Assembly (NCBI GenBank): GCA_003707065.3
Contig: PPXM03000004.1
Location: forward strand, 806,001 to 870,000
Direction of reading: 5' to 3'
Origin: Trigonopsis variabilis
Taxonomy: Eukaryota > Ascomycota > Trigonopsidomycetes > Trigonopsidales > Trigonopsidaceae
Length of the DNA: 64,000 nucleotides
Part shown: in pieces, positions 4,398-60,708 of the stretch
Numbering within the stretch: position 1 is the first letter of the stretch
How the letters are laid out: each line of letters opens with the position of its first letter
The notes under the pieces: model-generated
Told to the model about the DNA's origin: nothing
Databases searched by the model: none
What the model saw: only the letters and a program-made list of their open reading frames with translations
Made by a program: the position numbers and the translations under genes

Positions 4398-5188
4398 TCA
4401 CCAAAATTCCTCTTCAATGTCGTAGCCTCTATCTTGATTGGAGGAATGCCGAACATTATCCTCTGTAAATAGATCATCGTACGCGTGTTCCTTATTCCGT
4501 CGTTCTTGATATTGCTGCATTTCTTCTTGTCGACAAATCTCGGCCTCTTTTTCTTCTTCGGTCCTACGGGCCCTCTCCAACTCTTTTAGGTGCGCTCTCT
4601 TTTCCCCGAAAAGATCAGGGAACTTCTCTTCCCGGGTCTTGTTGAGTCGATTAACTATAGCATTCTCCCTCTCTGGGATAAAAACTTTCCTCACCAATCG
4701 CTCGTTGTGAAAACCGACTTGGCCAGTAACCATTCCATTGTCTTTGCGGAGGTTGGACCACGGCGTATAGATAACCGTCACGTTCTTTTTCTTGTTTCCC
4801 TGGATCGAATTGGCTTTGGTCAACTGGGCACAATCTTGAGTGTTAGCGTCCCCCATTTTCATCTCCATCATACCAGTGACCTGCTCTGAGGGGATATCTG
4901 TCCACGCCTGTCCAGGCTCTAGTCTGAGATACACATGAGCTGAGCTCAGATTATCGACGTGAAACTTGGGATTAGATCAATCTAGATTAGTTTTACCCTG
5001 GACGTTAGAACGAAACAGCTGTGCAAACTAACCAAACATCCTCTGGCCATCCATGAGCAATCAGATCTTCATCTGCCTTGTCAAAATTGTCTCCTCAATA
5101 ACGTACTCTCTTCCTTATGCTTTCCCATATATAGCTTGACCGGCCTGATTTTACCTGGATCGGGATCAGAGACAAAATAATAGACCAT
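4398..5188 (-). CDS. CCDC25/Jlp2-family protein (NFACT-R domain)
   Basis: Resembles animal CCDC25 and yeast Jlp2, small proteins with an NFACT-R (DUF814) domain and a charged C-terminal coiled coil. Conserved blocks are KLYMGKHKEENEDLIAHGW, FHVDNLSSAHVYLRL, CAQLTKANSIQG and VIYTPWSNLRK, and it ends in SSNQD plus an acidic tail. The predicted protein has 216 residues, close to human CCDC25 (about 208). The model needs exons 5107-5188, 5033-5072, the single base 4997, 4874-4964 and 4398-4834. Introns are 34, 35, 32 and 39 nt. The 39-nt intron (4835-4873) is in frame and stop-free, and unspliced it would insert 13 residues absent from the family. The one-base exon is needed to restore Trp before FHVD and is treated separately. 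Molecular role in fungi is unclear. Confidence 0.85.
4965..5032 (-). other. Two adjacent mini-introns separated by a 1-nt exon (recursive or stwintron-like splicing)
   Basis: On the minus strand, GATGTTTG is followed by GTTAGT..TCTAAC..CCAG (5032-4998, 35 nt). A single G follows (4997), then GTAAAA..CTAAT..CCCAAG (4996-4965, 32 nt), then TTTCACGTC. Only this arrangement gives GTT TGG TTT CAC, i.e. the conserved V-W-F-H. A single intron from the first donor to the last acceptor shifts the frame. Confidence 0.6.
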
Positions 5189-23924: not shown

Positions 23925-24023
23925 GCCCGCATAGCTCAGTTGGCTAGAGCGTCTGGCTTTTACCCACATCCGAAGGATAGGGGAGCCACCAGAATGTCAA
24001 GGGTTCGAGCCCCTTTGTGGGCG
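23925..24023 (+). tRNA. tRNA-Lys(UUU), intron-containing, copy 1
   Basis: Acceptor GCCCGCA/TGTGGGC, D arm TAGCTCAGTTGGCTAGA, anticodon stem TCTGG/CCAGA with loop CTTTTAA (anticodon TTT), and T arm GGGTTCGAGCCCC. A 25-nt intron (23963-23987) sits at the canonical 37/38 position. A T-run follows the gene as Pol III terminator. Confidence 0.95.
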
Positions 24024-24039
24024 CTTCTTTTTCCTTTCT

Positions 24040-24139
24040 GCCCGCATAGCTCAGTTGGCTAGAGCGTCTGGCTTTTACCCATGTTCGCTTGGACAGGGGA
24101 GCCACCAGAATGTCAAGGGTTCGAGCCCCTTTGTGGGCG
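24040..24139 (+). tRNA. tRNA-Lys(UUU), intron-containing, copy 2
   Basis: Exons are identical to copy 1, 16 bp downstream. The 26-nt intron (24078-24103) differs in its central part but keeps the same CCCA...GGGGAGCC ends and still folds into a hairpin. Followed by a run of nine T, a strong Pol III terminator. Confidence 0.95.
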
Positions 24140-58203: not shown

Positions 58204-59769
58204 TCAAAGAGGTATCGTAGAGTCACCCGCGCACGCCGTCTCCAAAAAGGCATCTGCCAACGCCCCGCCCCTCCAACTCTTTTCCACCCCATCAATCTGC
58301 TGAGCAAGGGCTGGACGCTGGATTGTAGTTACATAACCATAAATGCCCTCTTTTAGCCATAGTTTTGCAAAGTTATACGTATGCAGATTGATACCCTGCA
58401 TCACAAAGGTTGGCTGGACCTGCCAGACGATTCCTAGTTTTGCGAGCTCGAGGGTTAACGTCTTTAGCTCTGCATCGCTCCAGCCAGCTTTATTGAAATC
58501 ATAGGCTCCAGTGTACCCAAACCCAAACATGCGGTCAGGGTGCACGGCCTTGACTCCCTGGACAAAGGAGCTCAAGGTCGTCCAAGTTGGCGTGTCCATT
58601 CGACCCCACGTCAGTTCGCCGAGATGGGCGACAGCCAGTGCACGCTCAACCACCGTTTGAGTGCTCGGTTTAAACAGATACTGTCCTTCTGAAGTCCTTG
58701 GCAAATCCCAATCGAAGAATATAGGAGACTTGACATATTCCTCAGCTACCTTTTTCATCTCCTCCAAGCTGGGGAACGTTTTATCGGCCAGCGCCTTTCG
58801 GAAAGCTTCAATCTCTTGTGGGCAAGCGACGCGTTCAACTGCTTCTTCAAACGTTGCTGGTTGAGCGCGCTGCATCCAGTCCTTTCGAGTCTTTTGGTAA
58901 TCAGCAACCGATTCAAAAGTATTCTTCATGGCATGAATATATGGCTCCACTGGACGGGTAGCACCCATGATGTATCTGTGATCGCGAGGATCGACCGTGG
59001 ATGTGATGAACTCTGCCAGGTCGGCGTCACATCGGCACATCAACATAGTTTCAGCGCCCATGATATCAAGCTGAAGACGGACGGCTGTGAGACGGCGAAC
59101 ATAGTCACACGTGGGCACCAGCGATCGCCCCTGTCCTCTCGCAAAACGCTTGAGTCCAATGGCCAGGTCGTCCATATGGATCATTGCCACGCCGCTCTCG
59201 ACAAATCGCTTGACAAGCTTGATTGTGGTGGTTGTGGCACCAAAGCCCATGTCCGCATCAGCAACCAACGGGGTCATGTAATCAACTTTAGCGCAGGCTT
59301 CCAATTCTTGCGGAGAGAGCTCCGAACGGTAAATCCTCTGCTTGCGGTCGTGCCATGCTTGCGAGCGAAAGATCTTGTCTGCTGTTTTAGGGACAGTGTC
59401 CCAAGGATAGTCAGCATGATCTGTGCCTGGCTCCTCCACAGCTGCCATTCCACACACTCCGCCAGAAACATAAATCGAATCCATGCCGGCTTTGGACATC
59501 TGGGAAACCAAAATGGGATCAATGGCTCCAAACGTCATTGAGGCAGTGCCGTCGGCTTGATGGCGACGAAGGGAAGCGTAGAGCTTGAGGGCCATTCGGC
59601 TCGCAGGATATTCGACCGAGAACGAGTTTCTCATCTTGGCTACCTTCATTGCGGAGTAAGGACGGCTGATCATCCTCTGCTTTTCCGAGGACTTCCACCA
59701 TTTCTCAATTCGTTCGGCCTCCTCCTTCAATAAAGCGTGCTCCTCTTGATAAACCTTGGACATAGTCAT
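58204..59769 (-). CDS. Isocitrate lyase superfamily protein lacking the catalytic KKCGH motif
   Basis: 521 residues from ATG 59769, single exon, the length of fungal isocitrate or methylisocitrate lyase. Family blocks are clear: IEKWWKSS, RPYSAMKVAKMRNSFSVEYPAS, FGAIDPILVSQMSKAGMDSIYVSG, DYPWDTVPKTADKIFRSQAWHDRK, VDYMTPLVADADMGFG, MIHMDDLAIG, LVPTCDYVRRLTAVRLQLDIMG, VDPRDHRYIMGA and GIVWQVQPTF. The metal-binding Asp residues (VADAD) remain, but where lyases have K-K-C-G-H the sequence reads KRFARG. The later NxSPSFNW substrate motif is GYTGAYDFN. The C-terminus, STIPL, is not a PTS1. It is probably not a normal isocitrate lyase; it may act on another 2-hydroxyacid or be non-catalytic. Confidence 0.85.
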   Translation of the reverse strand: MTMSKVYQEEHALLKEEAERIEKWWKSSEKQRMISRPYSAMKVAKMRNSFSVEYPASRMALKLYASLRRHQADGTASMTFGAIDPILVSQMSKAGMDSIYVSGGVCGMAAVEEPGTDHADYPWDTVPKTADKIFRSQAWHDRKQRIYRSELSPQELEACAKVDYMTPLVADADMGFGATTTTIKLVKRFVESGVAMIHMDDLAIGLKRFARGQGRSLVPTCDYVRRLTAVRLQLDIMGAETMLMCRCDADLAEFITSTVDPRDHRYIMGATRPVEPYIHAMKNTFESVADYQKTRKDWMQRAQPATFEEAVERVACPQEIEAFRKALADKTFPSLEEMKKVAEEYVKSPIFFDWDLPRTSEGQYLFKPSTQTVVERALAVAHLGELTWGRMDTPTWTTLSSFVQGVKAVHPDRMFGFGYTGAYDFNKAGWSDAELKTLTLELAKLGIVWQVQPTFVMQGINLHTYNFAKLWLKEGIYGYVTTIQRPALAQQIDGVEKSWRGGALADAFLETACAGDSTIPL

Positions 59770-60708
59770 GATGGTACCCAGATCCAAGACGCAGCAAAGT
59801 CATTCATCCCACGAATCGCTTTTCCGAAGATAATTCGGAGATGGATACCGAGGCAGCGATAATCGACAATGATCTGTCACGTTACCTGATAAGCTCACAT
59901 GTTCCAGAGGGCTGCTCAGACGCCAATTTGCAGCGCGAGCTAACCGAGACAGACGCACCAGAATAGTCATGCAAATGTATAATTGCCTGTCTTTTCGAGT
60001 CAACTAAGGTCTCAATCTACTATCAAGCTGTTTGAAAGTCTCAAAGCACCCAAGCATCTCCCACGTCGGACTGATAATGTCGATAGCTATCGAGATGGCT
60101 GGAGTAACGATAATCGTTTCGGGATCGGAGCGCGAGTCCGATTAGGTCGAAAAGGGAAGCCAGTTCACTTATTGCATGATTAGATAATCAGATCATTCAA
60201 CAAAGATTAAATTATTACAGATCTTTGACTGGGAATGGGATGAGGACCGCGTAGCTAGAGAATGAGATCGCACAAAGGCAATGCTACTGTTGTCATACGA
60301 GACGCGAGTGTTCTTGACAGGAGCCTGGCTAGTTACCATGGACGCCAATCGGCGTCGAATGCCTAGGAGGCGCAATGCGAGAGAGACAAAATGATTTGGT
60401 GGTGAATAGGTGGGGAAAGGAAAAGATAGACGATCATCGGAAGGAGAGCCAGAGAAGAATAAAGATTGTGACGGTGAGATTGATTACAAGCACTAGGACC
60501 GGTAAACGATACAAGGATCAGGTTTTTATCATCATCAGACCCCGAAAGCAGGTGTCTGTATCAGCCGTTGGCAACCATTCTTCGGACAATATTAGGTCGG
60601 GGCCGATGTCCGAGGTGAAGGATTAAGATATCGCGAACGGGCATGAGTATACAATCCGACATTTGAATATAAAACTGCTCCAAGGCCAAGAAGCACATAT
60701 AATAAAGG
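59770..60708. other. Divergent promoter region (lyase-like gene and transporter)
   Basis: 0.94 kb between divergent genes; the shared region could co-regulate them. TATAAAA at 60668-60674 lies 35 bp before the transporter ATG. The frame at 60375-60626 has no family features. Confidence 0.55.
60668..60674 (+). promoter_or_regulatory. TATA box of the transporter gene
   Basis: TATAAAA, 35 bp upstream of ATG 60709. This is close for a fungal TATA box, so transcription could start near or at the coding start. Confidence 0.35.

Follow-up and report, generated by a model that had tools for sequence, protein, structure and literature searches.

A predicted one-nucleotide exon between two mini-introns in the CCDC25/Jlp2 homologue of Trigonopsis variabilis

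As read from its DNA sequence, the CCDC25/Jlp2 homologue of Trigonopsis variabilis contains a one-nucleotide exon of the APC11/CYP621A kind, within the predicted gene structure given in Table 1. The gene lies on the minus strand of the window, the whole 64,000-nucleotide stretch of DNA that was analyzed (C4:806001-870000, in a genome of 11.35 Mb and 15 contigs). Along that strand, GGATGTTTG is followed by the intron GTTAGTTTGCACAGCTGTTTCGTTCTAACGTCCAG (5032-4998, 35 nt), a single G (4997), the intron GTAAAACTAATCTAGATTGATCTAATCCCAAG (4996-4965, 32 nt) and TTTCACGTC. The exon is flanked by AG and GT (CCAG-G-GTAAAA), and joining TG, G and TTT produces the Trp-Phe pair (W-F) between HGWPEDV and FHVDNLSS. 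If both introns are removed, the mature junction reads GATGTTTG^G^TTTCAC. A preliminary description of this DNA had proposed the same arrangement of 35 nt, G and 32 nt, and direct reading and a script agreed with it base for base.

Table 1. Features of the predicted CCDC25/Jlp2 gene (positions within the window)
Feature	Position	Strand	Description
CCDC25/Jlp2 homologue	4398..5188	-	five exons of 82, 40, 1, 91 and 437 nt (last including the stop); 216 aa
Intron 1, 34 nt	5073..5106	-	GTACGT...GCAG; links KEEN to EDLI, matching the family
Intron 2, 35 nt, phase 2	4998..5032	-	GTTAGT...TCTAAC...CCAG
Single-nucleotide exon G	4997	-	third base of the Trp41 codon; required for W-F
Intron 3, 32 nt, phase 0	4965..4996	-	GTAAAA...TCTAAT...CCCAAG
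Intron 4, 39 nt	4835..4873	-	multiple of three, no in-frame stop

When the introns at 5106-5073, 5032-4998, 4996-4965 and 4873-4835 were taken out and the remainder was translated by script, an unbroken frame of 216 aa was obtained. NFACT-R_1 (PF05670) matches residues 1-115 of this product (1.1e-31; 110.1 bits against a curated cut-off of 29.8), and solved CCDC25 chains in the PDB match it as well, the best at 9.3e-56. A protein search with the 216-aa product returned 4492 matches, 120 of which were listed and aligned; the top three among the matches listed have 59-60% identity over 100% coverage, and one of the listed homologues carries the name Jlp2. By sequence, the predicted product is a full-length member of the CCDC25/Jlp2 (PF05670) family with nothing odd in the protein itself. 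W and F are adjacent in 118 of the 120 homologues among the matches listed. Intron 1 (5106-5073) has the lowest branch score of the gene's four introns, and the 13 residues that intron 4 would add are absent from all 17 of the aligned homologues compared. Retention of intron 4 (4873-4835) would yield a 229-aa form carrying those 13 extra residues. The genome as a whole contains two PF05670 matches, one being the CCDC25/Jlp2 homologue and the other a 1033-aa open frame on contig C3.

Elsewhere in the window, Rfam reports two adjacent tRNA matches of 99-100 nt at 23925-24139 (+) and ARAGORN reports none; these are perhaps tandem intron-bearing tRNA genes. At 58204-59799 (-), a single open frame resembles 2-methylisocitrate lyase. 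Schizosaccharomyces pombe supplies its top match among those listed (54% identity; 657 bits, the runner-up having 586), and in a single-gene tree built from 22 selected rows it falls beside this species on a long branch with weak support (87/64).

We enumerated the introns that could span the W-F junction, allowing GT or GC donors and AG acceptors, which gave 24 single-intron and 14 double-intron combinations. Six were open and in frame: the pair described above, four single introns and one other pair. Of the GT/GC-AG combinations enumerated, the reported pair alone gives back an exact W-F, the motif that the earlier description had read from TG, G and TTT. The same description had held that one long intron from the first donor to the last acceptor breaks the frame. 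This is correct for that intron only; four other single introns, which the description lacks, keep the frame. In the signal model, where intron scores are in natural-log units and do not yet include the cost of 3 charged for each intron, the reported pair scored 16.25 and the frame-breaking 68-nt intron (5032-4965) scored 3.29. In the unspliced RNA sequence, introns 2 and 3 each come with a donor, a branch motif and an acceptor of their own. By hand count, the branch A lies 5 nt from the AG in both, a distance also found in 22 of 47 confident introns from the genome sample. The total signal score of intron 2 (5032-4998) exceeds those of 29 of these 47 introns, and that of intron 3 (4996-4965) exceeds 34. 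An origin of the pair by tandem duplication of a single intron was also considered and rejected because the two are no more alike than shuffled sequences (local score 5, equalled in 1366 of 2000).

Gene structure was predicted with a home-made gene finder that combines a codon-phase Markov model with donor, branch, acceptor and length terms. It took no protein homology as input, and its starting motifs, the branch motif included, were taken from the fungal consensus. Training used 264 kb in a first run and 314 kb of the same contig (C4:606001-920000) in a second and a third. The first run, in which introns 2 and 3 were among the 334 training introns, chose both introns and the one-nucleotide exon in rounds 1-3; in round 3 the chosen start codon lay further downstream. 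In the second run introns 2 and 3 were kept out of training, although the starting signals were inherited from the first, and exons of 82-40-1-91-437 nt were obtained in five of five rounds. A third run, started from scratch and never trained on the two introns, gave the same exons in rounds 1-4 of 5. With the untrained signals of round 0, the first and third runs kept intron 5032-4998 and the one-nucleotide exon, followed by a second intron at 4996-4908; a 10-nt exon upstream was an extra difference.

The most frequent intron length in the sampled contig (C4:606001-920000) is 36 nt, and a peak at this length is short for an ascomycete. The second run supplied the 47 confident introns (median 40 nt), of which 36 are ≤60 nt, 35 of these being 22-53 nt. 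The final model contains 352 introns, those >75 nt looking partly spurious; 136 are signal-supported, with 103 of these at 30-45 nt and 5 at 60-80 nt. At 35 and 32 nt, introns 2 and 3 fit the usual mini-introns of this genome. In the sampled contig, the branch A mostly lies 4-7 nt before the AG. The final model also has 256 internal exons, 37 of them ≤20 nt. When both neighboring introns are signal-supported (45 internal exons), G4997 is the only exon shorter than 14 nt. Weak branch or donor sites mark the other 1-12 nt exons that the gene finder called, and because the model makes such weakly supported calls, a gene-finder call by itself proves nothing. One of them, a one-nucleotide exon G at C4:622122 (-) between introns of 54 and 49 nt, has good donors and weak branch sites and is probably spurious. 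The 314 kb thus hold one clear case, from which no genome-wide rate of one-nucleotide exons follows, since it was the one given beforehand.

To gauge chance, the inner 49 nt of the 68-nt stretch were randomized, while the first donor and the final 13 nt were left unchanged. The observed tandem score was reached by none of 20,000 dinucleotide shuffles, by 2 of 20,000 mononucleotide shuffles (one of them with a one-nucleotide exon) and by none of 20,000 random genomic 49-mers. In-frame AG-n-GT splits of any strength were found in 3574, 2283 and 1872 per 20,000 of the dinucleotide, mononucleotide and genomic 49-mer sets (9-18%). Because such splits are frequent by chance, it is the strength of the signals and not their bare presence that bears the argument. 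To control for frame damage, a script removed a single base on one or the other side of each of the 36 confident introns of ≤60 nt. These 72 deletions produced five models with an exon of 1-2 nt, none of which had both introns as strong as introns 2 and 3; two of the five arose in a gene whose unmutated model already contained a weak one-nucleotide exon. The median score loss caused by the deletions was 4.85. Making the second donor of the CCDC25/Jlp2 gene unusable lowered its best score from 23.5 to 12.9, a loss of 10.6. A second weak call of a one-nucleotide exon was met in the deletion control.

These measurements bear on several other ways of reading the site. The 68 nt might be an ordinary intron and the inner AG-G-GT an accident, if the assembly had dropped a base, or the strain had lost one, in the G run by the donor or by the acceptor. 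The lost base would sit in a short G run, where base loss is a common error type, and homologues from Penicillium and Trichophyton, with apparent annotation slips before the F codon, hint at an old phase-0 intron between W and F. We nonetheless consider a missing base quite unlikely: 0-2 of 20,000 shuffles matched the inner tandem signals, 68 nt falls in a length range (60-80 nt) occupied by 5 of 136 signal-supported introns, and such an intron pair was produced by 0 of 72 simulated deletions. A single canonical intron using another in-frame donor is very improbable, even though all four candidates yield open, in-frame products. The intron at 5028-4965 (64 nt; score 1.06) would add Leu between W and F, and that at 5037-4965 (73 nt; score 0.50) would remove Val-Trp. 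Their donors, GTTTGC and GTTTGG, score 0.77 and -0.12, with just 1 of 47 confident introns lower. Less likely again are 5016-4965 (52 nt; LVCTA added; score -1.37) and the GC-donor intron 5019-4965 (55 nt; LVCT added; score -3.34), whose donors score below all 47. Each of these single introns would also change a W-F pair whose two exceptions among the 120 listed homologues look like annotation slips.

The bases at the junction also permit one 68-nt intron with GT-AA (or TT-AG) ends, TTTG/GTTAGT...CCCAA/GTTTCAC, where the slashes mark the splice sites. The resulting mRNA would be identical to that of the two-intron reading, and the mature mRNA alone does not distinguish the two. Non-canonical intron ends are rare, the length is atypical for the genome, and the inner branch motif, AG and GT would be left unexplained; we regard this as a remote prospect. 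The alternative to which we attach the least probability is a stwintron or a strict recursive site, where removal of the second intron depends on prior removal of the first. The preliminary description had favored recursive splicing with the first intron removed first, and had placed the site close to the stwintrons. If intron 2 (5032-4998) does go first, a donor TGG/GTAAAA is recreated. In the strict form of recursive splicing, however, the 5' splice site arises only through the first splicing step, and at 4997 the second donor is complete beforehand and slightly stronger (5.31 before removal of the first intron, 5.04 after). The first acceptor scores 2.96 whether the second intron is present or removed. 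We rejected the strict recursive form on this sequence evidence. The likeness to stwintrons lacks their defining feature, an interrupted motif: introns 2 and 3 each keep their own motifs with the other present or removed, and on this ground we rejected a stwintron. In a wider usage of recursive splicing (PMC6224609), an exon is joined to the preceding one and their junction forms a new 5' splice site; at G4997, TGG/GTAAAA would be such a junction if the first intron left first.

We therefore return to the two-intron reading. Taking protein conservation, the intron statistics of this genome and the shuffles together, it is highly probable that, in the primary transcript, a constitutive one-nucleotide exon G is flanked on each side by a complete U2-type mini-intron (35 and 32 nt). 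Because both introns carry complete sites, the sequence dictates no order of removal, and either order works on paper. Each intron would be recognized through intron definition, nearest sites pairing at the usual length of 30-45 nt in preference to a 68-nt skip, and the two would then be removed one after another in either order. Simultaneous removal is unlikely because the first acceptor and the second donor are one nucleotide apart. If a single GT-AG intron (5032-4965) skips the G, the frame shifts and a stop follows after 46 residues. Retention of intron 3 (4996-4965) or intron 2 (5032-4998) leads to stops after 45 and 49 residues, respectively, and mis-spliced products with these early stops would probably be degraded. 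An extension of this reading, speculative and on balance improbable, is that the spliceosome of this lineage prefers introns of about 36 nt, that short-range pairing alone includes the one-nucleotide exon constitutively within 68 nt, and that the skipped and half-spliced RNAs with early stops act as a splice-length sensor tuning CCDC25 output. On the same speculative reading, one-nucleotide exons may recur across the Trigonopsis variabilis genome. A U1 candidate scores 61.3 bits, below the Rfam cut-off of 69.5; by eye its 5' end is ordinary and complementary to GT donors.

The homologues that depart from W-F suggest how the site may have arisen. In the Trichophyton equinum homologue (P0114) Val-Trp is missing at the junction, and in that of Penicillium vulpinum (P0120) Val-Ser-Leu is inserted between W and F. 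Both exceptions appear to be annotation errors at an intron whose 3' end directly precedes the Phe codon. If so, these two proteins point to an old phase-0 intron between W and F, of which intron 4996-4965 would be the descendant. For the Fusarium CYP621A exon, the authors propose that a base was lost beside an intron and that a cryptic exon rescued the frame (PMC12940212). For the placozoan cox1 exon, the available text proposes that an intron was acquired a single base upstream of one already there (PMC5436844). By analogy, either route could apply to G4997.

In the literature searched, we found no CCDC25 single-nucleotide exon, and the present case lengthens by one gene the very short list of such exons found there. 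Whole introns of 32-35 nt whose neighboring splice sites are separated by a single base offer a clean natural substrate for studying minimum site spacing and the order in which sites are used. The case also shows how annotation of mini-intron genomes may break conserved genes. The rare layout itself has already been published for a few plant and fungal genes, the CCDC25/Jlp2 gene being a further, unusually compact example; its 68-nt stretch is the most compact among the spliceosomal one-nucleotide cases with compared lengths (139 and 422 nt).

Among the closest known systems is the single-nucleotide exon of Fusarium CYP621A (PMC12940212, February 2026), which its authors call the first for a fungal gene and which has SRA read support and 20 orthologues. 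Like the CCDC25/Jlp2 exon, it is a single G in an AGGGT core, needed for a conserved motif in an ascomycete nuclear gene. The genes differ, and the Fusarium graminearum stretch measures 139 nt against 68 nt in the CCDC25/Jlp2 homologue, whose exon is predicted from the DNA. In plants, the one-nucleotide microexon A333 of Arabidopsis APC11, in a stretch of 422 nt, is described in the available text with RNA proof and reporter constructs (PMC4674806), and one-nucleotide exons of APC11 and VPS55 across land plants are described, with RNA proof, in the accessible part of PMC8831610. As far as those texts go, these exons share with ours the keeping of the frame and the fact of having been overlooked by annotation. 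They differ in belonging to plant genes and, for APC11, in the longer stretch, and their RNA proof stands against a CCDC25/Jlp2 exon predicted from the genome. Mitochondrial one-nucleotide exons are reported, in the portions available, for Ophiostoma and Ceratocystis rnl (PMC12308204) and for placozoan cox1 (PMC5436844). There too a single nucleotide remains between two adjacent introns, but those introns are organellar, self-splicing group II or group I elements and not spliceosomal. In the definition given in the available text of PMC5639578, the internal intron of a stwintron interrupts a motif of the external one. The Ascomycota stwintrons [D1,2] and [D2,3] have two intron units at one site that are removed consecutively (available parts of PMC5639578 and PMC7138796), as we predict for CCDC25/Jlp2. 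In those stwintrons the internal intron splits the external donor, whereas the CCDC25/Jlp2 introns are whole and lie in tandem.
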